The notes under the pieces: generated by a model | Told to the model about the DNA's origin: nothing | What the model saw: the letters and a program-made list of their open reading frames with translations, nothing else | The model's database searches: none | Assembly: GCA_023384575.1 (NCBI GenBank) | Contig: JAHDVP010000011.1 | Span: forward strand, 18,831-82,830 | Source: Acidobacteriota bacterium | GTDB lineage: Bacteria; Acidobacteriota; Vicinamibacteria; Vicinamibacterales; JAFNAJ01 | Reading direction: 5' to 3' | DNA: 64,000 nucleotides | Shown here: piece by piece, positions 12,149-34,827 of the stretch | Layout of the letters: the number at the start of each line of letters is the position of its first letter | Numbering within the stretch: position 1 is the stretch's first letter | Program-made: the position numbers and the translations under genes

Positions 12149-13693
12149 ATGAGCGAGCGCCTCGTCCTGCCCGTCGTTCCCGCACCGCGTCTCTGGGCGA
12201 AGCTCATCGATCACGGACAATGCATCGGCTGCCACGCGTGCTCGACCGCGTGCAAGTCCGAGAACGACGTGCCGCTGTCGGTGAACCGCACCTACGTGAA
12301 AGCGGTCGAGGTCGGCACGTTCCCGCAGGTGCGCCGCGCGTTCCAGGTGACCCGCTGCAACCAGTGCGAGGACGCGCCGTGTGTCGAGATCTGCCCGACA
12401 TCCGCGATGTACCGGCGCGACGATGGCATCGTCGACTTCGACAAGCGATCGTGCATCGGGTGCAAGGCGTGCATCGCGGCGTGCCCGTACGACGCCATCT
12501 TCATCAACCCCTTCGACGGTGCCGCGGAGAAGTGCAACCTCTGTGCGCACCGCCTCGAGGTAGGCCTCGAACCCGCGTGCGTGGTCGTCTGTCCGACGCA
12601 GGCCATCGTGGTCGGCGATCTCAATCACCCGGCGTCGGTCGTGGCGCGCGCGGCGCATCGCGACGTGGTACACGTCCGCCGGCCCGAGAAGGAGACGCGC
12701 CCGAAGCTGTTCTACCGGGGCGCGCATCAGGCAACGCTCGATCCGCTCGCCGCCGCACGCCCCGAAGGCGGCCTCTTCATGTGGAGCGAACAGCTCACCG
12801 GGGGGCAGCACGTCGTGTCGGGGCACCCGGAGGCGGCAAACCACGCGACGACGGCACGGCTCGCCTACGATGTCCCGCATCGCGCCCCCTGGGACTGGCG
12901 CGTGAGCCTGTACACGTGGACGAAGAGCGTGGCCGCAGGCGCGTACCTCGTGCCGGCGCTGCTCGTGCTCGCCGGTCTGCTCGACCCTTCGAGCCCGCTG
13001 TGGCGATGGCTCGGGCCGTGTATCGCCGGTGCTGCCCTGGCCGCAACCGGGCTGGTTCTCATCGGTGATCTCGAACAACCGACTCGTTTCTACTTCCTGT
13101 TCACGCGGGCACAACGCCGCAGCTGGCTGGTGAAGGGCGCGTGGGTCATCACGGCGTACGGCGCGCTGCTCTCGGCGCACGTGGCGCTCGTGCTCGCGGG
13201 GGTGGACCGCCTCGCGCCGCTGATGGCACTCGGGTTGCCTCTGGCGGCGATGACGGCCATCTACACGGCATACCTCTTCGCCCAGGCCAGGGCCCGCGAT
13301 CTGTGGCAGAGCCCGGTTCTCGCACCGCATCTCGTCGTGCAGGCCGTGCTGGCCGGTGCCGGCACCCTGGCGCTCTGCGGCCTCGTCGGCGGGCACCTCA
13401 CGGCGGAAGCCCGCGAGGCCCTGCTCTGGACGGTGGCCCTGGCCGGCGCCGGTCACCTGTGGCTCGTCCTCTGCGAGACGACGGTCGGGCATCCGACCTC
13501 GCACGCGCGACTCGCGGTGCGCGAGATGCTGTGGGGGCGCCATCACGTGACGTTCTGGACCAGCGTGGCGCTCGTGGCATGGGCCCTCGCCGCCCCCTGG
13601 CTGGGCCTGGCGGTGGTGCCGCTGGCGCTCGCGGGCCTGCTCGCCTACGAGCACGCCTACGTGCAGGCGGGCCAGGCGGTGCCGCTCGCGTGA
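12149..13693 (+). CDS. fused 4x[4Fe-4S] ferredoxin / NrfD-type membrane subunit
   Basis: A 514-residue fusion of the two electron-handling subunits of a DMSO-reductase-family complex. Residues 1-190 resemble DmsB/PsrB, with four cysteine sets: CIGCHACSTAC, CNQCEDAPCVEICP, CIGCKACIAACP and CNLC...CVVVCP, enough for four [4Fe-4S] clusters. From about residue 250 the protein has eight or so membrane segments and resembles NrfD/PsrC, which exchanges electrons with quinone. No signal peptide precedes the ferredoxin part. The ATG at 12149 is preceded by CCGGAG; an in-frame ATG at 12125 is possible. A TATCAT box lies at about 12083. The catalytic molybdoenzyme is the next gene, after repeat DNA. Confidence 0.9.
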   Translation: MSERLVLPVVPAPRLWAKLIDHGQCIGCHACSTACKSENDVPLSVNRTYVKAVEVGTFPQVRRAFQVTRCNQCEDAPCVEICPTSAMYRRDDGIVDFDKRSCIGCKACIAACPYDAIFINPFDGAAEKCNLCAHRLEVGLEPACVVVCPTQAIVVGDLNHPASVVARAAHRDVVHVRRPEKETRPKLFYRGAHQATLDPLAAARPEGGLFMWSEQLTGGQHVVSGHPEAANHATTARLAYDVPHRAPWDWRVSLYTWTKSVAAGAYLVPALLVLAGLLDPSSPLWRWLGPCIAGAALAATGLVLIGDLEQPTRFYFLFTRAQRRSWLVKGAWVITAYGALLSAHVALVLAGVDRLAPLMALGLPLAAMTAIYTAYLFAQARARDLWQSPVLAPHLVVQAVLAGAGTLALCGLVGGHLTAEAREALLWTVALAGAGHLWLVLCETTVGHPTSHARLAVREMLWGRHHVTFWTSVALVAWALAAPWLGLAVVPLALAGLLAYEHAYVQAGQAVPLA

Positions 13694-13730
13694 GGGACGG
13701 GGACAGGTGGTTGTCAGTCCTGAGCCGACA

Positions 13731-13910
13731 GTCTGGCTGGCGGCTACAGGCTACAGGCTGGTGGCCTGGTTGGAGACCTCGACGATTGAACGACTGGCCT
13801 TCGCTTCACTGCCAGTGAGGTTGCCGATCACGGAGGAGACGGCGATCGTCATCGTGCTGGCCGGTCGCCGCTGGCCGGTCGTCGCAAGCCGAATGTCGGA
13901 TTGGGGTGAG
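13731..13910. repeat. intergenic mosaic repeat, copy 2 (inside molybdoenzyme operon)
   Basis: The 252-bp gap before the molybdopterin oxidoreductase gene contains ggctggcggctacaggctac and caggctggtggcc at 13736-13766, then GTCGGATTGGGGTGAG at 13895-13910, which matches 6701-6716 at 15 of 16 positions. A short direct repeat (cattggtcattggt) follows just before the start codon. No gene is supported in the gap. Confidence 0.7.
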
Positions 13911-13945
13911 TCTGTTGTGATCGGCCATTGGTCATTGGTGACGAG

Positions 13946-16849
13946 ATGAGCATCGAGCCCGAGGCGGAACGCACCGCGCGCGAGGCCGCCGCCACGCGCG
14001 GGGAGACCTGTAACCCCGATCCGAGCCGGAACGAGCTCGTCGCGTTCCCACCGAAGGCGCGGTGGGACGACTGGCGCGAGCTCGATCCGAAAGCGTGGCC
14101 GGAACGCGTCGAGAGGCGCTACGCGCTCGTGCCGACGACCTGCTTCAACTGCGAGTCGGCGTGCGGCCTGCTCGCGTACGTCGACAGGGACACGGGTCAG
14201 GTCCGCAAGTTCGAGGGCAACCCGGAGCATCCCGGATCGCGCGGACGCAATTGCGCCAAGGGACCGGCCACCCTCAACCAGACCACCGACCCCGAGCGCA
14301 TCCTCCACCCGCTCAAGCGCTCCGGCCCGCGAGGCGAGGGGAGGTGGGAACGCGTGAGCTGGGACGAAGCGCTCGACGACATCGCCGCCCGCCTCCGGCG
14401 CGCGATCGTGGAAGGGCGCCAGAACGAGGTGATGTACCACGTCGGCCGGCCTGGCGAAGATGGCTTCACCGAGCGCATCCTCGCCGCGTGGGGCGTCGAT
14501 GGCCACAACTCACATACGAACGTCTGCTCGTCGAGCGGTCGTGCCGGCTATCAGTACTGGATGGGGTTCGATCGCCCCAGCCCCGACCACACCAACGCGG
14601 ACGTGATCCTGCTCATTTCCTCTCACCTCGAGGCCGGGCACTACTTCAACCCGCACGCGCAACGGGTGATGGAGGCCAGGCAGCGGGGCGCGACGCTGAT
14701 CGTCTTCGACACGCGGCTCTCCAACACGGCGACGCACGCCGACCACTGGCTCTCGACGTACCCGGGGTCGGAAGCAGCGGTCCTGCTCGCCGTCGCGAAC
14801 CACGTGATCCAGACCGGCCGGTACGACCGTGAGTTCGTCCGTCGCTGGTGGAACTGGGAGGAGTACCTGGCCATCGAACACCCGGCCGCGGGATCGTCCT
14901 TCGAGGACTTCGAGCGGATTCTCCGCGAGCTCTACGCGGAGTACACCTTCGAGTTCGCCTCGAAGGAGTCTGGCGTCGACACGGCCACGATCGCGGCCGT
15001 CGCCGATGCCGTGTCGCGCGCCGGCACCCGTCTGTCGACACACACGTGGCGCAGCGCGGCGGCCGGCAACCTCGGGGGGTGGCAGGTTTCGCGGACGCTC
15101 TTCCTCCTGAACGCGCTGCTCGGGGCAGTCGCCACCGAGGGCGGCGTCTACCCCAACGGCTGGAACAAGTTCGTCCCGCGGCCGATGCACGTACCGCCTC
15201 ACCCACGCACGTGGAACGAGCTGACGTGGCCGGCCGAATACCCGCTCGCCATGAACGAGCTGTCGTTCCTCCTGCCGCACTTCCTCGCGGAGGGGCGCGG
15301 CCGGCTCGATGTGTACTTCACGCGCGTCTACAACCCCGTCTGGACCAACCCCGACGGGTTCTCCTGGATCGAGGCGCTCACCGACGAGACCAAGGTCGGC
15401 CTGCACGTCGCGCTCACGCCGACGTGGAGCGAAACGGCCTTCTTCGCCGACTACGTGCTGCCGATGGGGCTCGCACCGGAGCGCCACGACGTCCACTCGT
15501 ACGAGACGCACGACGCGCAGTGGATCGGGTTCCGCCAGCCCGTGCTGCGCGCCTGGCGCGAGCGACAGGGCGACGCCGTCGTCGACACGCGCGACGTGAA
15601 TCCTGGCGACGTGTGGGAGGAGAACGAATTCTGGATCGACCTCACCTGGCGGATCGACCCCAGTGGCGAGCTGGGGATTCGTCGATACGTCGAGTCGCGC
15701 GACCGTGCTGGCGAGAAGCTCTCCATCGACGAGTACTACGGGTTCATCTTCGATCACTCCGTCCCCGGGCTGCCGGAGCGTGCGGCCAGTGAGGGCCTGA
15801 CGCCGCTGCAGTTCATGCGCCGCTACGGCGCGTTCGAGACCGCCCGCCGCATCGGCCCCGTGCACGAGCAGCCCGTTCCATCTGGAGAGCTCGACGACGC
15901 GGCCGTCGATCGGTTCGGGCGCGTGTACACCCGGGCGCCACAGGCCGCCCCGCTCAACCTGGTGCCGCAGCCCACCCCCGATCCCGACGCCGAGGACCGG
16001 CGGCCCGTCGGCGTCAACGTCGACGGCCGCATCCTTCACGGGTTCCCCACGCCGAGCGGACGGCTGGAGTTTTACTCGACGACGCTCGCGACCTGGGGAT
16101 GGCGCGAGTACGCGCTGCCCACGTACATCAGGAGCCACGTCCATCCCGAGCACCTCGAACCCGGGCAGATGCCCCTCATCTCGACGTTCCGCCTGCCCGT
16201 GCAGATCCATACGCGCAGCGCGAACGCGAAGTGGCTCGACGAGATCGCGCACACGAATCCCCTGTGGATACACCCGGCCGACGCGGCCCGGCTGGCGCTC
16301 GGCACCGGCGACCTCGTGCGCGTCGAGACGGCCACCGGCTACTTCGTCGTCAAAGCGTGGGTCACTGAAGGCATCCGCCCGGGCGTGGTCGCCTGCAGCC
16401 ATCACATGGGACGCTGGAAGGTGCACGATCACGGCCAGCGCCAGCACATGGCCACCGTCGCGCTCGATCGACAGGATCGCCGCTGGCGGATGACGCGTCG
16501 CGAGGGCGTGGGGCCGTATGCGTCGGCCGATCGCGATACGCAGCACATCTGGTGGAGCGACGTGGGGGTGCACCAGAACCTCACGTTCCCTGTGCACCCG
16601 GATCCCATTTCGGGCCAGCACTGCTGGCACCAGGCCGTACGCATCCGCAAGGCCGATTCAGGTGACGCCTACGGCGACGTCTTCGTCGACACGGGGCGGT
16701 CGCGTCGCGAGTACGAGTTGTGGCTCGCGCGCTCGCGCCCGGCGCTCGCGGTCTCACCCGACGGCACGCGGCGCCCGTACTGGCTGCTGCGACCGCTCAA
16801 GCCCGCGCGCGAGGCGTATCGGCTGCCGGGGTCGCCGGCCGGCGGGTAG
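13946..16849 (+). CDS. molybdopterin oxidoreductase catalytic subunit (DMSO reductase family)
   Basis: A 967-residue MopB-type enzyme. A [4Fe-4S] site is formed by Cys66, Cys69, Cys73 and Cys103. Cys194 in HTNVCSSSGRAGYQYW is the likely molybdenum ligand by comparison with cysteine-ligated family members. Downstream come pterin-binding segments (NADVILLISSHLEAGHYFNP, FDTRLSNTATHADHW) and a C-terminal molydopterin dinucleotide-binding domain (NPLWIHPADAARLALGTGDLVRVET). With the ferredoxin/NrfD fusion upstream it forms a membrane-attached quinone-linked complex like Psr/Phs. No twin-arginine signal is seen, so the enzyme may face the cytoplasm. The substrate cannot be assigned. The start is the ATG after GACGAG; the Shine-Dalgarno is weak. 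Confidence 0.9.
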   Translation: MSIEPEAERTAREAAATRGETCNPDPSRNELVAFPPKARWDDWRELDPKAWPERVERRYALVPTTCFNCESACGLLAYVDRDTGQVRKFEGNPEHPGSRGRNCAKGPATLNQTTDPERILHPLKRSGPRGEGRWERVSWDEALDDIAARLRRAIVEGRQNEVMYHVGRPGEDGFTERILAAWGVDGHNSHTNVCSSSGRAGYQYWMGFDRPSPDHTNADVILLISSHLEAGHYFNPHAQRVMEARQRGATLIVFDTRLSNTATHADHWLSTYPGSEAAVLLAVANHVIQTGRYDREFVRRWWNWEEYLAIEHPAAGSSFEDFERILRELYAEYTFEFASKESGVDTATIAAVADAVSRAGTRLSTHTWRSAAAGNLGGWQVSRTLFLLNALLGAVATEGGVYPNGWNKFVPRPMHVPPHPRTWNELTWPAEYPLAMNELSFLLPHFLAEGRGRLDVYFTRVYNPVWTNPDGFSWIEALTDETKVGLHVALTPTWSETAFFADYVLPMGLAPERHDVHSYETHDAQWIGFRQPVLRAWRERQGDAVVDTRDVNPGDVWEENEFWIDLTWRIDPSGELGIRRYVESRDRAGEKLSIDEYYGFIFDHSVPGLPERAASEGLTPLQFMRRYGAFETARRIGPVHEQPVPSGELDDAAVDRFGRVYTRAPQAAPLNLVPQPTPDPDAEDRRPVGVNVDGRILHGFPTPSGRLEFYSTTLATWGWREYALPTYIRSHVHPEHLEPGQMPLISTFRLPVQIHTRSANAKWLDEIAHTNPLWIHPADAARLALGTGDLVRVETATGYFVVKAWVTEGIRPGVVACSHHMGRWKVHDHGQRQHMATVALDRQDRRWRMTRREGVGPYASADRDTQHIWWSDVGVHQNLTFPVHPDPISGQHCWHQAVRIRKADSGDAYGDVFVDTGRSRREYELWLARSRPALAVSPDGTRRPYWLLRPLKPAREAYRLPGSPAGG

Positions 16850-19214: not shown

Positions 19215-22200
19215 GTGTCGCTCCTTCAACAGAAGCCCGCGCTGCCGCTGGACGTCGCCGCCGACCTGGCGCGCTCGCGTTTCGGCATCGAAGGCGCGGC
19301 CTCGCCGCTGCCTGGCGAACGCGACCAGAACGTCAGGATCGACGCAGTCGACGGGCGGCGGTTCGTGCTCAAGATTGCCCATCCCGCAGACGACGCGTCC
19401 CTGCTCGAGGCGCAGCACGTTGCGATGGCGGCCGCGGCACCGCTCTCGCCCCGGCCGGTGCCCGGCATGTCGGGTCGCGCCGTCGAAGCGGTCGTGATCG
19501 ATGGCCGCCGCTACCTCGTGCGCCTCCTCACGTGGATGGATGGCAGGCCCCTGGGCGAGCTCGCCCGCCGGACCCCGGCCCTGTTCGAGTCGCTCGGTCG
19601 GGCCGTGGCCGCGGTGGACCGGGCGCTGACCGGCATCGACCACCCGGCCCTGCACCGTGAGTTCCCGTGGGATCTCGAGACGGCTCCGCGCCTGCTCGCT
19701 GCGACGCCAGAAGGCCTCGACGCCGAACGACAGGCGTTCGTCTCGCACGCGCTGGCGCTTCACGCGGCGCACGTCGCCCCACGCGCAGCGGGCCTGCGGC
19801 GCCAGGCCATCCACAACGACGCGAACGACTACAACGTCCTGGTCGGCGGTGAAGACGACGCCCCTCACTCACGCGGCCAGACGGTCGTGGGGCTGCTCGA
19901 CTTCGGCGACCTCATCTGGTCGGCTCGGGTTCATGACGTGGCGGTCGCCGCCGCTTACGCCCTGCTCGGGCAGGACGACCCGCTCGCGGCGGTGGCCGCG
20001 GTGGTTCGTGGGTACCACGAGACCCTGCCACTCGACGAGAACGAGATCGCGTCGCTCTTTCCGCTCGTCCTGCTGCGCCTCGCGCTGAGCGTCCACCACG
20101 CGGCCCGCCAGACGTCGGCACGGCCCGACGACCCGTACCTGTCGATCAGCCAGGCCCCGATCACAGCGGCCATGCCGGTGCTGACCGCCACGCATCCCCG
20201 CCTCGCGCACTACGTCCTGCGCGACGCCTGCGGGCTGCCCCCCGTGCCGCATGCGTCGCGCGTCATCGAGTGGCTGCGCGCGCACCAGGTCGACTTCGCG
20301 CCGGTGCTCGGGCGCGACCTTCGCGCGCCAGGCGCCGCGGTGCCGCTGGATCTGAGCGCGGGCAGCGTGCTTCTGCCGAGCGACCCGGCTACCCGGACGC
20401 CGCGGTTGCTGGCAGAGCGACTGGCTGACGCCATCAGGCGGACTCCCGGGGCGGCTGACGACGCCGTCGGCGTCGGCGGCTACGACGAGGCGCGCGTGCT
20501 CTACACCACCCCGGCTTTTCGCAGCACGCGCCCCTTCGCCGAGGGCCGTACCGTCCACCTTGGCGTCGACCTGACCGCGCCGGCGGGCACGCCCGTGCAC
20601 GCGCCGATCGGCGGGGTCGTGCATGGGTTCGAGGACGCGACGGCGCCTCTCGACTACGGCCCCGTGATCGTCCTCAGGCACGATCAGCCCGGCGTGGCGT
20701 TCTACACGCTGTACGGGCATCTCGGTCGCGAATCGCTCGCACGCCTGCGGGTCGGCCAGACCGTTGCGGCGGGCGAGCGCCTGGGATCGATCGGCTCGTC
20801 CGAGGTGAACGGCGGCTGGTGGCCGCACCTGCACCTACAGGTCATCACGGACATGCTCGACGTGCCGTGCAACTTCAACGGCGCCGCCGTGCCGAGCCAG
20901 CGGGACGTCTGGAAGGGCCTCTGCCCCGACCCCAACCTGGTGCTGCAGGTTCCCGACGACCAGCTGCCCCGGAGACGCGCCACGAGGGATCTCCTGACCT
21001 CACGACGGGCTCACGTCGGTTCGAACGTCCGCTTGAGCTATCGTCGACCGCTGCGCATCGTGCGCGGATGGATGCAGTGGCTGTACGACGAGGACGGCCG
21101 GCCGTATCTCGACGTGTACAACAACGTCCCGCACGTCGGTCACGCGCACCCGGGAGTCGTGACAACGGTCTGCGAGCAGTTGGCGGTGCTCAACACCAAC
21201 ACGCGCTACCTGCAGGACGTGCACGCCGAGTACGTCGAAGCGCTGCTTGCCACCTTCCCGGCGCCGCTTTCGGTCTGCTACCTGACGACGTCGGGCAGCG
21301 AGGCCACCGAGCTCGCCCTGCGGCTGGCGCGCGCCGCGACGGAAGGTGTCGACTTGCTCGTTCTCGACGGGGCCTATCACGGCCACACCACGACGGCGAT
21401 CGACATCAGTCCGTACAAGCACGACGGCCCTGGCGGCGCGGGCGCGCCGGCATGGGTTCACAAGGTGTCGCTTCCCGACCTGTACCGCGGCCCCTATCGC
21501 GCCTCCGATCCTGACGCCGGTCTGAAGTACGCCGCGGCCGTCGGGGCTCGCATCGACGACATCGGGAGCCGGCGGCGCCGCCTGTGCGGCTACCTCGCCG
21601 AGACGTGTCCGAGCGTGGGCGGTCAGTTCTTCTTGCCGGCGGGCTACCTGCGCGAGGTCTATCGACTGACGCGGGCGGCTGGCGGCGTCGCCATCGCCGA
21701 CGAGGTGCAGACGGGCCTCGGCCGCATCGGCACGCACCTCTGGGCCTTCGAGGCGCACGGCGTCGTCCCCGACATCGTCGTGCTCGGCAAGCCACTCGGC
21801 AATGGCTACCCGATGGGGGCGGTCGTCACGACGCGCGAGATCGCCGACGCGTTCGACAACGGCATGGAGTTCTTCAGCACGTTCGGCGGCAGCAGCGCGG
21901 CCTGTGCCGCGGGGCTCGCCACGCTGAGGACGGTGCTGCGCGAGGGCCTGATGGCCAACGCCCGCGAGGTGGGTGGCCGGCTGCTCGACTCGCTCCGCGC
22001 CCTCCAGGGGCGACATGCGGTCATCGGCGACGTCCGGGGCGCCGGGCTCTTTCTCGGCATCGAGCTGGTCGTGGACCGCGACACGCGTCAGCCTGCTGCC
22101 GAGCAAGCCGACTTCGTCGTCAACCGTCTTCGCGAGCTCGGCATCCTCACGGGCACCGATGGCCCGTTCCACAACGTCGTCAAGGTGCGTGGCCCGATGT

Positions 22201-22271
22201 GCGTCACGGGCGAGGACGCGGACCTCCTCGTGACGGCGCTCGACCGCGCGTGCGACGAACTGGCGCACTGA
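19215..22271 (+). CDS. APH-type kinase / M23 / class III PLP phospho-lyase fusion
   Basis: A 1018-residue fusion. Residues 20-330 are a choline/aminoglycoside-kinase-like domain with the catalytic loop HND at 200-202 and the metal-binding DFGD at 229-232. Residues about 435-560 are an M23 (LytM-like) domain with intact zinc ligands: His448 and Asp452 in HLGVD, and His538/His540 in HLHL. Residues about 600-1015 are a class III aminotransferase fold with PLP lysine Lys859 in LGKPLGNGYPMG and the cofactor segment TSGSEATELALRLAR. The outer domains parallel the human hydroxylysine kinase and the ethanolamine-phosphate / phosphohydroxylysine phospho-lyases, so the likely job is to phosphorylate an amino alcohol and eliminate phosphate and ammonia. 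Why an M23 domain sits between is unclear. GTG start. Confidence 0.88.
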   Translation: MSLLQQKPALPLDVAADLARSRFGIEGAASPLPGERDQNVRIDAVDGRRFVLKIAHPADDASLLEAQHVAMAAAAPLSPRPVPGMSGRAVEAVVIDGRRYLVRLLTWMDGRPLGELARRTPALFESLGRAVAAVDRALTGIDHPALHREFPWDLETAPRLLAATPEGLDAERQAFVSHALALHAAHVAPRAAGLRRQAIHNDANDYNVLVGGEDDAPHSRGQTVVGLLDFGDLIWSARVHDVAVAAAYALLGQDDPLAAVAAVVRGYHETLPLDENEIASLFPLVLLRLALSVHHAARQTSARPDDPYLSISQAPITAAMPVLTATHPRLAHYVLRDACGLPPVPHASRVIEWLRAHQVDFAPVLGRDLRAPGAAVPLDLSAGSVLLPSDPATRTPRLLAERLADAIRRTPGAADDAVGVGGYDEARVLYTTPAFRSTRPFAEGRTVHLGVDLTAPAGTPVHAPIGGVVHGFEDATAPLDYGPVIVLRHDQPGVAFYTLYGHLGRESLARLRVGQTVAAGERLGSIGSSEVNGGWWPHLHLQVITDMLDVPCNFNGAAVPSQRDVWKGLCPDPNLVLQVPDDQLPRRRATRDLLTSRRAHVGSNVRLSYRRPLRIVRGWMQWLYDEDGRPYLDVYNNVPHVGHAHPGVVTTVCEQLAVLNTNTRYLQDVHAEYVEALLATFPAPLSVCYLTTSGSEATELALRLARAATEGVDLLVLDGAYHGHTTTAIDISPYKHDGPGGAGAPAWVHKVSLPDLYRGPYRASDPDAGLKYAAAVGARIDDIGSRRRRLCGYLAETCPSVGGQFFLPAGYLREVYRLTRAAGGVAIADEVQTGLGRIGTHLWAFEAHGVVPDIVVLGKPLGNGYPMGAVVTTREIADAFDNGMEFFSTFGGSSAACAAGLATLRTVLREGLMANAREVGGRLLDSLRALQGRHAVIGDVRGAGLFLGIELVVDRDTRQPAAEQADFVVNRLRELGILTGTDGPFHNVVKVRGPMCVTGEDADLLVTALDRACDELAH

Positions 22272-31114: not shown

Positions 31115-32083
31115 ATGGTCGACACGGCGCAGATCCAGGAGGCAGTGAGGCGCCTTCGGCGGGGCGAACTGGTCGCCTTCCCGACCGAAACGGTCTACGG
31201 GCTGGGCGCCGACGCGTCAAGCGCGGATGCTGTCGCGCGTATCTTCGCGGCCAAGGGCCGGCCCACGACCCACCCGGTCATCGTCCACCTCGCCCGCGTC
31301 GACCAGGTCGCCGCGTGGACCACGGGACTGCCCGACACCGCTCGACGCCTGGCCGAACGCTTCTGGCCGGGTCCTCTCACGCTCGTGCTCCCTCGCGGAC
31401 CGAAGGTGCTCGACCAGATCACCGGGGGGCAGGACACCGTCGCCGTTCGGATCCCGGTCCATCCCGTCGCCCGAGCGCTGCTCGAGGCCTTCGGGGATGG
31501 CATCGCCGCGCCGTCGGCGAACCGGTACGGGCGGGTGAGCCCGACGCGCGCCGAGCACGTGCGCCAGGAACTGGGTGATGCGGTTGGACTGGTGCTCGAC
31601 GGAGGCGACTGCGCCGTCGGCCTGGAATCGACAATCGTCCAGTGCTCGACGGATCGCGTGCGGCTGCTCCGGCCGGGCGGCATCACCCGCGTCGAGATCG
31701 AGGCGCTCGTCGGTCCGGTGGAGGCCTCGCTGCGCGGAGGGCCTCGGGTGCCGGGTTCAACGAGATCGCACTACGCGCCGGCGACCCCGGTCGAGCTCGT
31801 GGAGGCCGCCGACCTCGACGCGCGGTGGCGCGCGCGATCAACGGAAGGCCCCGTGGCCGTGGTGGCCCGTCGGGCGGCCCCAGCCGACTTCGCCGGCTGG
31901 TGGAGGTCGATGCCAGCCGACGCCGGAACGTACGGCCACGACCTGTATGCGACGCTGCGCGCGCTCGACGGCTCAGGCGCCGCGCGCATCCTGGTCGAGC
32001 GCGTGCCGGACGTGCCAGCCTGGGACGCGGTCCGCGACCGCCTGGAACGGGCCGCGGCGCGAGAGTCGGCTGAAACGACCTGA
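31115..32083 (+). CDS. L-threonylcarbamoyladenylate synthase (Sua5 type)
   Basis: A 322-residue enzyme that makes threonylcarbamoyl-AMP from threonine, bicarbonate and ATP for the universal t6A37 tRNA modification. The N-terminal YrdC/TsaC domain (residues 1-190) has GELVAFPTETVYGLGADASS, the KGRPTTHPVIVHL segment and IAAPSANRYGRVSPT. The linker carries STIVQCS and RLLRPGGI, and residues 210-322 form the shorter Sua5-specific C-terminal domain, starting PGSTRSHYAPATPVELVE. The presence of the second domain makes it Sua5-type rather than the short TsaC. The gene appears to be transcribed as a leaderless monocistron. Confidence 0.95.
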   Translation: MVDTAQIQEAVRRLRRGELVAFPTETVYGLGADASSADAVARIFAAKGRPTTHPVIVHLARVDQVAAWTTGLPDTARRLAERFWPGPLTLVLPRGPKVLDQITGGQDTVAVRIPVHPVARALLEAFGDGIAAPSANRYGRVSPTRAEHVRQELGDAVGLVLDGGDCAVGLESTIVQCSTDRVRLLRPGGITRVEIEALVGPVEASLRGGPRVPGSTRSHYAPATPVELVEAADLDARWRARSTEGPVAVVARRAAPADFAGWWRSMPADAGTYGHDLYATLRALDGSGAARILVERVPDVPAWDAVRDRLERAAARESAETT

Positions 32084-32135: not shown

Positions 32136-32960
32136 TCAGCGCCCGGGTCGAGCCAGGTGGCGGTCGCCGCCCCAGAGCGCCCTCACCACGGCGCTCGCCA
32201 CCTGCGTCCCGTAGATGCGTTCGGGGACCACGTTGGCCGGATCGCGCTCGGCGGCATGGCGGCGCAACTCGAGGTCGCGCAGCGCGAGCTCGGGATACTC
32301 GTGCGGCCGGACGGGCTCGGCGTCGTCGACCCATCCCAGCCACCGATCCAGGTACGCGTGCGCCTGCGTCCTGATGAGATCGACGACGCCGTCAGTGCCC
32401 GGCTCCGCGATGAAGCAGAGGGCCACCGGCGACATCAGGGCGCGAACGTAGGTGCTCTGGCTGACGAAGGGCTTCAGCCGGTCGTCCTGCATCAACTCCA
32501 TGTACTGCGCGTTCGCCTGGTCGAAGTACCGATCCATGTAACCTGGAGTCGTCAGGAAGTGGACGCGCGGGAAATAGTCCATGTAGAACAGCGTGGCCGG
32601 GTAGGTGCCGAACTGGAACATGAGGTGCGGCACCTTCGTCTGCGGACCGAGCCACACGTTGATGTTCAGGTTGCAGAAGCTCTTGCCGGGCGTGCCGATG
32701 CGGCCGTAGACGGCCCAGTCGATCTCGGGGCCGCTCCACGCGGCGAGCGTGCCCTGGGCCTGGCCATCGGGAGACGCGTAGGGCTGGAACCGTGCCGTCG
32801 AGGGATCCGGCGTGAGCGCGAACCGGCCGCGGATCCGGTCCCACAGGGCATCCTGAATCGTGCACAGCTCCTTGAAGACGGGGGTGGTGTCGACGTCAGG
32901 ACGTTCTGCAATCAGCCTGGACACGGGCTTGACGTGATCGCCGTTGTTGCTGGTCGGCAT
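32136..32960 (-). CDS. red chlorophyll catabolite reductase-like protein
   Basis: A 274-residue protein without a common bacterial annotation. Its order of conserved blocks parallels plant red chlorophyll catabolite reductase, a ferredoxin-dependent bilin reductase: VPHLMFQFGTYPATLFYMDY, then RVHFLTTPGYMDRYF, then LKPFVSQSTYVRALMSPVAL, and a closing VPERIYGTQVASAVVRALWG. The plant enzyme has the equivalents PxFvvELIQ, RKDLV..P.Yl..YY, .PYVSpSLFVRS.fSPTA and FPRMFG..V..RVV.aI. The aligned position of the plant catalytic glutamate appears to be Gln here, so the reaction may differ. GGAGGT precedes the ATG at 32960. Family membership rests on recall of the plant sequence, not on a search. Confidence 0.6.
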   Translation of the reverse strand: MPTSNNGDHVKPVSRLIAERPDVDTTPVFKELCTIQDALWDRIRGRFALTPDPSTARFQPYASPDGQAQGTLAAWSGPEIDWAVYGRIGTPGKSFCNLNINVWLGPQTKVPHLMFQFGTYPATLFYMDYFPRVHFLTTPGYMDRYFDQANAQYMELMQDDRLKPFVSQSTYVRALMSPVALCFIAEPGTDGVVDLIRTQAHAYLDRWLGWVDDAEPVRPHEYPELALRDLELRRHAAERDPANVVPERIYGTQVASAVVRALWGGDRHLARPGR

Positions 32961-33132
32961 GACTCGGACCTCCGGCCGGGATGCGGATGGACATCGCGTG
33001 CGCGCGACCTCCGGCAGGGGCGGACAGGAGCGCGGGGCGCACAAAGGCCGAGTATGGAACCGCCTTCGAACCGCTGTCAACCGCCGGAGACGTCGCGGTG
33101 CGGCACGGCGGCGGATGCGTCGGCCACCGGTC

Positions 33133-33603
33133 TCAAGGCCTGTCCAGCCGCCCCGATCGCGCCGCGTGAATGAAGTCGATGACGGGCGGCGTGCCGCCGG
33201 CGGCACGGATGTCCGCCGCGATCTGACCCCGGTGGTGCTGCCCGTGGAGCGGCAGGTGCGTGACGATGTCGCCGAGCGTGCACTCGAACCACTGGCCCCG
33301 TGTGTTGGCGTAGCGTGCGACCTGTCCCAGCGACGCGTCGGTCAACTCGGCGAGCAGTCGCTGCCACTCGTCGCGCGCCACGTCGAGTTCCGCGCGAGTC
33401 TCGTCGAGAGTCAGCGTCGGGTTCACCTGGTGGGGCATGGGCGTTCCGACCACGCGTGCGTACCACACGCGCTTCGCCGCCATGATGTGCGCAAGCCAGG
33501 CCACCGACCTGGGAGCGCGGTCGGCCACGGGCGACAGGGCCGCGAGCGTTGCGAGGTTGGCCCAATGATCGAAGTCGAGCAGGCGACGGTGATAGGCAAT
33601 CAC
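33133..33603 (-). CDS. DinB family protein
   Basis: A 156-residue four-helix-bundle protein of the DinB/YfiT group. Metal-binding histidines are expected in SVAWLAHIMAAKRVW (first) and LPLHGQHHRGQI (second and third), and both motifs are present. DinB proteins are often thiol-dependent transferases or dechlorinases; the substrate here is unknown. It starts with GTG preceded by GGGAG. It follows the kinase-BRCT gene by 27 bp on the same strand. Confidence 0.85.
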   Translation of the reverse strand: MIAYHRRLLDFDHWANLATLAALSPVADRAPRSVAWLAHIMAAKRVWYARVVGTPMPHQVNPTLTLDETRAELDVARDEWQRLLAELTDASLGQVARYANTRGQWFECTLGDIVTHLPLHGQHHRGQIAADIRAAGGTPPVIDFIHAARSGRLDRP

Positions 33604-33630: not shown

Positions 33631-34827
33631 TCACCGGCGACGGCACAACTGCCAGAACCTGGCTTCGTCGAGCAGCACGATCCGGTGGCCTTTCTCGCGC
33701 AGGCGCTTGATCTCCATGAGCTTCAATCCGGCATCGCGGCCGGCCGCCTGCTGCGGGTTCGGCCGCCCTCGCACGACGACGCTCGTCCGCGCCGACGGCA
33801 TGCCGTGGACGACGGCGCCGGCCCGCCGAGCCGCATCGATGGCATCGGCCCGGGGGCGCGTGAGGATACCGGTGAAGGCCAGGTGCACGCCCTTCAGCGT
33901 GCGCAGCACGCCGACGTCGAGCGTGGCCGGCGGATGCCGCAACGCGTCGATGAGCTCGTCGGCGTTCTCGTACCGCTTCCGCCGCTCACCGATGCACCGG
34001 TAGATGATCTCCTTGAGGTGATCGCTGCACGCGAACCGCCGTACCTCGTGCGGTCGCACGCGCTCCCGCGCATCGCCCTTCACCAGCATCGCCAGCAACT
34101 GGCCCACCTGGTACACGTCGTCGCGCGCCTGCCACTTCGGCGCCGCGCTCGCCAGGAGGTCGCTCGGCGCCATCGACCGATTGAGCGTTCGCGCCGTGAT
34201 GCCCCGCTGGCCGCTCTGCTGGCGAGCGATCCCGAAGTCGCCGAGCTTCAGGCGGCGGCCTTCGCACACGAACACGTTCATGGGCGTCAGGTCACGGTGG
34301 AGCATCTGCCCGCGGTGGAGCTTGCCGAGGACCTGCAGGATGCCCGCGATCTCGCGGCGCACCGTCGCTTCGGGCCACGGTCTCCCGTCGCGGTGGAGGA
34401 ACAGGCCGAGGTCGCCATGGCTGGCGTATTCGATGACCAGGCAGTAGACCATCCTGCCGTCGGGCCGCGCGAGCGGGAAGCCGTCGAAGACACGAATGGC
34501 GCGCGGGTTGGCGTCGAGCACCTGTCCGAAGTACGCCTCGCGCAGCCACCCGTCGATCCGCGTGCTGGCCTTGACGCACACCACCTGCGGCACCGTCGTC
34601 GAGCGGCCGCGACGCCGGGCGAGGTACACCTGGCCGTAGCCCCCCTGCCCCAGCAGCCGTTCGATGCGGTATTCGAGCCTGGTCTCGGGACTGAAAACGG
34701 TCTGAGCCGGCTGCAGCAGGTAGCCGCCACCGTCGAGCGGAACGTGCACCGACCGGGTAGTGCGGGTCGTCGCGGCCGCCGCGCGCGTCGACAGGCGCGG
34801 GCGGGTCTTCGCGGGTCGTGATCGCAT
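33631..34827 (-). CDS. serine/threonine protein kinase with C-terminal BRCT domain
   Basis: A 398-residue fusion. Residues 50-300 form a Hanks-type kinase domain: Gly-rich loop GQGGYGQV (60-67), probable ATP-anchoring Lys86, catalytic loop HRDLTPMN (177-184), DFG at 197-199. Residues about 311-395 match a BRCT domain as in NAD-dependent DNA ligase: VHLAFTGILTRPRADAIDAA, then AGAVVHGMPSARTSVVVRG, AGLKLMEIKRLREKGHRIV and LLDEARFWQL. BRCT domains bind DNA ends or phosphopeptides, so the kinase may be directed to DNA damage or to its own phosphorylated partners. No membrane helix is present, unlike PknB-type kinases. The upstream GMC gene ends 29 bp before it. Confidence 0.88.
   Translation of the reverse strand: MRSRPAKTRPRLSTRAAAATTRTTRSVHVPLDGGGYLLQPAQTVFSPETRLEYRIERLLGQGGYGQVYLARRRGRSTTVPQVVCVKASTRIDGWLREAYFGQVLDANPRAIRVFDGFPLARPDGRMVYCLVIEYASHGDLGLFLHRDGRPWPEATVRREIAGILQVLGKLHRGQMLHRDLTPMNVFVCEGRRLKLGDFGIARQQSGQRGITARTLNRSMAPSDLLASAAPKWQARDDVYQVGQLLAMLVKGDARERVRPHEVRRFACSDHLKEIIYRCIGERRKRYENADELIDALRHPPATLDVGVLRTLKGVHLAFTGILTRPRADAIDAARRAGAVVHGMPSARTSVVVRGRPNPQQAAGRDAGLKLMEIKRLREKGHRIVLLDEARFWQLCRRR

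Follow-up and report, generated by a model that had tools for sequence, protein, structure and literature searches.

A bacterial homologue of red chlorophyll catabolite reductase in Acidobacteriota and a conserved gene cluster around its actinobacterial relatives

The window, the whole stretch of 64,000 nucleotides of Acidobacteriota DNA that was analyzed, encodes a protein that almost certainly belongs to the superfamily formed by plant red chlorophyll catabolite reductase (RCCR) and the ferredoxin-dependent bilin reductases. Its nearest kin in this superfamily are RCCR and an RCCR-like family of actinobacteria. The actinobacterial genes lie in a conserved cluster from which we infer degradation of chlorophyll-type tetrapyrroles, while the window gene itself appears to stand alone.

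Gene, family membership and active site of the window protein

The original prediction placed an RCCR homologue at 32136-32960. These coordinates are exact, and the strand, which had not been given, is minus. All of the ordered blocks quoted as resembling RCCR are present in an open reading frame that starts with ATG. The gene and its surroundings contain the following features.

32136..32960, minus: RCCR-family gene (P0002), 274 aa, with the ATG at 32960 and the stop at 32136
32613..32615, minus: codon of Gln116, the counterpart of Arabidopsis Glu154 in alignments
32241..32243, minus: codon of Asp240, the counterpart of Arabidopsis Asp291 in alignments
32968..32973, minus: Shine-Dalgarno GGAGGT, 7 nt before the ATG of the RCCR-like gene, read from the sequence
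33051..33080, minus: promoter-like TTGACA-18-CATACT between the DinB gene and the RCCR-like gene, from a consensus scan
33133..33603, minus: DinB-superfamily protein (PF12867, E 5.9e-13), upstream neighbour with no evident link
31115..32083, plus: Sua5/YciO threonylcarbamoyl-AMP synthase (PF01300, E 6.3e-60), downstream on the opposite strand with no evident link

The RCCR-like gene looks monocistronic because a promoter-like site of its own separates it from the DinB gene. This site has 10/12 consensus matches and was found once, against 0.0 +/- 0.2 expected in shuffles, which is no proof of function. The gene has a GC content of 67% and a codon use native to the window, where 13 of 45 genes deviate more. 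Its neighbourhood (Sua5, DinB, a kinase, a GMC oxidoreductase, an MFS transporter and a LysR regulator) suggests no pathway. A Ser/Thr kinase is encoded at 33631-34827 (minus strand), with a C-terminal part that is BRCT-like by reading and without a Pfam match at 1e-4. Elsewhere in the window, one protein of 1018 aa (19215-22271, plus strand) combines an APH-type phosphotransferase, an M23 peptidase domain and a class III aminotransferase, and a Fer4/NrfD membrane protein is paired with a molybdopterin oxidoreductase as an electron-transfer complex (12149-16849, plus strand).

Homology to RCCR, as had been proposed, is significant by profile, by sequence and by predicted fold, which establishes family membership. 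A lack of profile similarity, named beforehand as grounds for refutation, is not what we found. The Pfam profile PF06405 (RCC_reductase) matched residues 49-262 of the window protein with an E of 5.1e-16 and 59.1 bits (gathering cut-off 24.9); Arabidopsis RCCR (AtRCCR) was also matched by profile (E 6e-19). The bilin reductase profile PF05996 stayed below its cut-off (E 0.027, 14.6 bits vs 31), and a search of NCBIfam with the window protein gave no match. When PDB sequences were searched with phmmer, AtRCCR (2zxk) came first (E 3.9e-10, residues 8-262), and the AtRCCR entries were followed by a plastid bilin reductase at E 0.019. An AlphaFold2 model (pLDDT 86.3), built from an alignment of 15 bacterial relatives, had AtRCCR chains as all nine of its best PDB matches (TM 0.69-0.73, E 3e-13 to 4e-12). 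Behind these came HY2 (E 7e-11), PebB (1.4e-10), PebA and PcyA, and coproporphyrinogen oxidase was a far weaker fold match (E 0.14). The protein is classed here as a homologue within PF06405; the name RCC reductase would require ferredoxin-dependent reduction of RCC to pFCC.

We take Glu154 and Asp291 to be the catalytic acids of plant RCCR, and Phe218 to set its stereospecificity; the plant numbering was set from the F218V mutant pair as chain index plus 34. The suspicion that the catalytic Glu is Gln in the window protein was borne out, as Gln116 occupies the Glu154 position in the alignments. At this position the 52 bacterial relatives, which we divided into type A, the closest to the window gene, type B and a short type C (PF06405 E 0.003), carry Ala in 21/21 A-type, Val in 12/12 B-type and Asp in 19/19 C-type proteins. 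The second acid is conserved as Asp240, which aligns with Asp291 in all alignments except one, where it aligns with the adjacent D290; the position is Asp in 51 of 53 bacterial rows, the other two being one gap and one Asn. Asp128, Arg132 and Arg233 are also retained, and Phe218 is Met176. According to a study of bilin reductases, pre-PcyA and PcyX have no equivalent of Glu76 and are nevertheless active, with Glu76 needed for one regiospecific step (PMC10151467), so that Gln116 is no argument against catalysis. By analogy, a changed reduction site is more likely than a loss of reduction. Since the A and B clades have Ala or Val in place of the first acid, the RCCR-like family as a whole may catalyze another reaction.

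Host genome, actinobacterial relatives and their gene cluster

The host genome (5.9 Mb, 100% complete, 0.54% estimated contamination) contains a single PF06405 match. Of 59 relatives of the host and 395 further genomes sampled within its phylum, none matched this family, a pattern which suggests that the RCCR-like gene was acquired horizontally or has been lost widely. Viral, plasmid and phage sequences were searched as well and gave no matches. The earlier remark that no chlorophyll genes are evident holds for the photosynthetic reaction centre family PF00124 (Photo_RC), which had no match in the whole host genome. The host also had no match to the phytochrome PHY domain PF00360 and none to the heme oxygenase family PF01126, the one heme-degrading family that the search covered. 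No partner genes were found on the stretch of contig that was read around the RCCR-like gene.

We scanned 84,980 species genomes with a pattern built on the motif P-[FY]-V-S-x-S-x-[YF]-V-R-[AS]-x-x-S-P-x-A, which is common to the window protein and Arabidopsis RCCR. Seven loci were found, every one of them in Nocardioides or Mumia. All code for full-length relatives of the window protein (38-40% identity, tblastn E 1e-58 to 1e-64), and this outcome for one motif of 17 residues excludes a chance resemblance. The nearest relatives overall belong to the Actinomycetota (38-43% identity), and the A-type proteins have the C-terminal motif RALWGGDR in common with the window protein. A profile search for the PF06405 family in these genomes found at least two copies in each and a third within about 25 kb in three of them; a third RCCR-like type was also read directly at other loci. 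In trees, the window protein falls on a long branch outside the actinobacterial A and B clades, with the A clade forming one side of a branch that excludes it (95/92 in one tree, 90/92 in another). The host was searched for B-type, C-type, Rieske, orphan and chlorophyllase-like hydrolase genes and none were found; for the Rieske oxygenase of the actinobacterial cluster described below, this holds at E 1e-5. On these searches, the window gene thus represents a separate and solitary lineage.

Relatives occurred in 15/395 genomes sampled from the class of Nocardioides, including genomes of 1.0-1.7 Mb with two to six matches as well as genomes of 8 Mb, and in 3/396 genomes of the phylum sample. 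The two to six RCCR-like matches in the 1.0-1.7 Mb genomes (L065, L066, L067, L073, L074) would be a heavy investment if these genomes are streamlined. Such small RCCR-rich actinobacteria are perhaps aquatic and live among algae.

Around the RCCR-like genes, about 20 genes are conserved between Nocardioides and Mumia. The clusters read were L027 and L028 (Nocardioides sp. Root1257), L029 and L030 (Mumia sp. zg.B17), L065-L072 and L083-L086, with contents assigned by Pfam and PDB matches. In 14/14 actinobacterial genomes with enough readable flank, a Rieske oxygenase gene and a C-type paralogue are no more than a few kilobases away from the A-type gene; the minimal arrangement in common runs A, Rieske, C, orphan (L083, L084). 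The cluster has two or three RCCR-like paralogues, and individual genes are missing from some clusters. The following products are encoded in addition to the RCCR-like proteins.

Cluster: Rieske oxygenase carrying VanA_C
Cluster: alpha/beta hydrolases, one in the plant methylesterase/hydroxynitrile-lyase family that includes a probable pheophorbidase
Cluster: short-chain dehydrogenase (SDR)
Cluster: ABM-domain protein
Cluster: branched-chain-type ABC importer
Cluster: FAD monooxygenase, two aldehyde dehydrogenases, acyl-CoA dehydrogenase, flavin reductase, CN-hydrolase and CoA-transferase
Cluster: isochorismatase-family amidohydrolase, maleamate-amidase-like (PDB matches 3e-42 and 5.8e-37)
Cluster: putative maleate isomerase (PDB match 2.7e-11)
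Cluster: dimethylmalate-lyase-like protein (best PDB relative 2,3-dimethylmalate lyase, 1.7e-44)
Nearly every cluster read: orphan of 326 aa without a Pfam match (L028:7145-8125 and relatives)

Some more specific names were considered for these products. The Rieske protein was dropped as PAO-like, since its domain is VanA_C and not PaO, and a hydrolase was dropped as a chlorophyllase, its match to PF07224 (E 0.008) being below the cut-off. A heme-degrading function is not claimed for the ABM-domain protein, which has no PDB relative. We likewise do not claim that the SDR resembles chlorophyll b reductase (NYC1/NOL). The orphan gave a poor model (pLDDT 59) that resembles the cyanobacterial DUF3598 and the chloroplast protein BFA1, a likeness that we regard as a lead only. 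Beside or near the RCCR-A gene in several clusters (L071:8292-9926, L069, L070, L072, L084), a CN-hydrolase (nitrilase) carries an additional fused part of about 280 aa that Pfam does not match. No heme oxygenase gene is present in the cluster, and Nocardioidaceae carry one elsewhere in the genome.

Candidate role of the window protein and of the cluster

Our best guess from the sequence is that the window protein acts on another tetrapyrrole or has a new role, and the best single explanation, which we hold with about even confidence, is a stand-alone enzyme that depends on ferredoxin, reduces a scavenged open-chain tetrapyrrole and has a changed site specificity. From its kinship we infer the substrate and reaction as follows. 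The open-chain tetrapyrrole would be held between the central beta-sheet and the C-terminal helices and reduced one electron at a time by reduced ferredoxin, Asp240 donating a proton. With Gln116 in place of the first acid, the reduction site is probably unlike that of plant RCCR. The substrate is probably scavenged, since the host has neither canonical heme oxygenase to supply biliverdin nor photosynthetic reaction centres, and it is probably a chlorophyll-derived linear tetrapyrrole of the RCC or phyllobilin type. Its reduction would either remove a photosensitizing pigment or serve as one step of degradation by a community. A catabolic role is supported by the relatives, whose A-type gene shares a cluster with the Rieske and C-type genes, amide hydrolases and the maleate isomerase/dimethylmalate-lyase-like module, though this context transfers weakly to the window gene because the companion genes searched for are missing from the host.

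Other explanations differ in what they make of the same evidence. The protein might bind or alter a tetrapyrrole without ferredoxin-dependent reduction, as a chaperone, as an isomerase or by coproporphyrinogen-type chemistry, or it might act on an unrelated ligand. This would fit the loss of the catalytic Glu, which has given way to Gln in the window protein and to Ala or Val in paralogues A and B, as well as the fold that coproporphyrinogen oxidase has in common with the window protein, weak as that match is. It is rendered rather unlikely by the retained Asp240, Asp128, Arg132 and Arg233, by a pocket-bearing fold that is intact in the model and by the active reductases without an equivalent Glu (PMC10151467). 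Alternatively, a bilin reductase could act on biliverdin or another heme-derived bilin and yield a chromophore or an antioxidant. The fold common to PebB, HY2, PebA and PcyA, the C-terminal DPA...R.YG block like that of bilin reductases and the weak PF05996 match, along with a match at 2e-5 for an actinobacterial A-type member, agree with such an activity; we consider it improbable, as both sequence and fold are nearer RCCR and the host has no PF01126 heme oxygenase or PHY domain, with no such gene nearby.

The history of the gene offers two further readings. That the gene was picked up passively and has no role at present could account for its absence from the 59 relatives and 395 other sampled genomes and for the contig stretch free of partner genes, yet this seems quite improbable for a full-length open frame with a strong ribosome-binding site, a promoter-like site, native codon use and conserved core residues. 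As RCCR is best known from plants, the gene might be a contaminant or have come recently from a plant or alga by transfer. This is hardly credible and is refuted as far as the present data go, given the greater identity to actinobacterial proteins (38-43%) than to Arabidopsis RCCR (24%), the GC content and native codon use, the low estimated contamination and a contig of 134 kb with ordinary bacterial genes.

The actinobacterial cluster may extend the stand-alone reductase reading to a pathway. The amidohydrolase, maleate isomerase and dimethylmalate-lyase-like protein would plausibly form a route from maleimides to small acids, by analogy with the comparable route of nicotinate catabolism. 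Oxidative breakdown of chlorophyll and heme yields substituted maleimides and hematinic acid (PMC7318184). A Rieske oxygenase together with as many as three RCCR-like proteins suggests an open-chain or macrocyclic tetrapyrrole as the natural starting substrate, and chlorophyll is favoured over heme by the kinship to RCCR, the ester hydrolases and the absence of heme oxygenase from the cluster. Taken as a whole, it is possible, though we hold it only tentatively, that the family of the window gene is the reductase arm of an undescribed bacterial uptake and mineralization of chlorophyll-type tetrapyrroles. The Rieske oxygenase and two or three RCCR-like reductases would open and reduce the macrocycle or bilin, and hydrolases would take off the ester groups. 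The resulting substituted maleimides or maleamates would then pass through amide hydrolysis, maleate isomerization and dimethylmalate-lyase-like cleavage to small acids. The window organism would retain the reductase only, perhaps detoxifying pigments released by its neighbours.

Comparison with known systems

The window protein matches plant RCCR (PF06405; AtRCCR 2zxk/3aga) in profile, sequence and fold over the whole domain and retains the counterpart of Asp291. It differs in its low identity, in the changes of Glu154 to Gln116 and Phe218 to Met176, and in its bacterial, non-photosynthetic host, where no ring-opening oxygenase partner was found in the search with the Rieske oxygenase of the cluster. 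The bilin reductases of PF05996 (PebA, PebB, HY2, PcyA, pre-PcyA) have the same fold and C-terminal D-P-A block, whereas their sequence match to the window protein is insignificant (0.027) and the host is without PF01126 and phytochrome. The globin, V4R and Fe-S companions of pre-PcyA are not among the neighbours of the window gene.

A bacterial relative of RCCR is not new as such. RCCR-like sequences from Ca. Schekmanbacteria have been placed in an RCCR outgroup (PMC10151467), cyanobacterial BLAST hits to RCCR have been reported (PMC2716323) and two new clades of RCCR-like sequences were left unplaced (PMC13193486). In the accessible parts of these three papers, with which we compare by description only, no such cluster, Actinomycetota or host is described. 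The literature searched, which was without most subscription papers and all preprints, held no description of the cluster, and its novelty is therefore provisional; to judge from this literature, neither the variants of the catalytic site nor the conserved catabolic cluster had been reported before.

Chlorophyll turnover is estimated at about 1 billion tons a year (PMC12930011), and the reviews in the literature searched trace chlorophyll catabolites inside plants only. The window gene alone is a modest addition, and the main interest lies in its relatives. With a conserved bacterial cluster that contains RCCR-like enzymes, the question of which organisms break down chlorophyll and phyllobilins in soil and water, and by what means, can be put to a concrete set of genes. 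Research on RCCR and the bilin reductases also gains bacterial lineages whose natural residue at the site of the plant catalytic Glu is Gln, Ala, Val or Asp.
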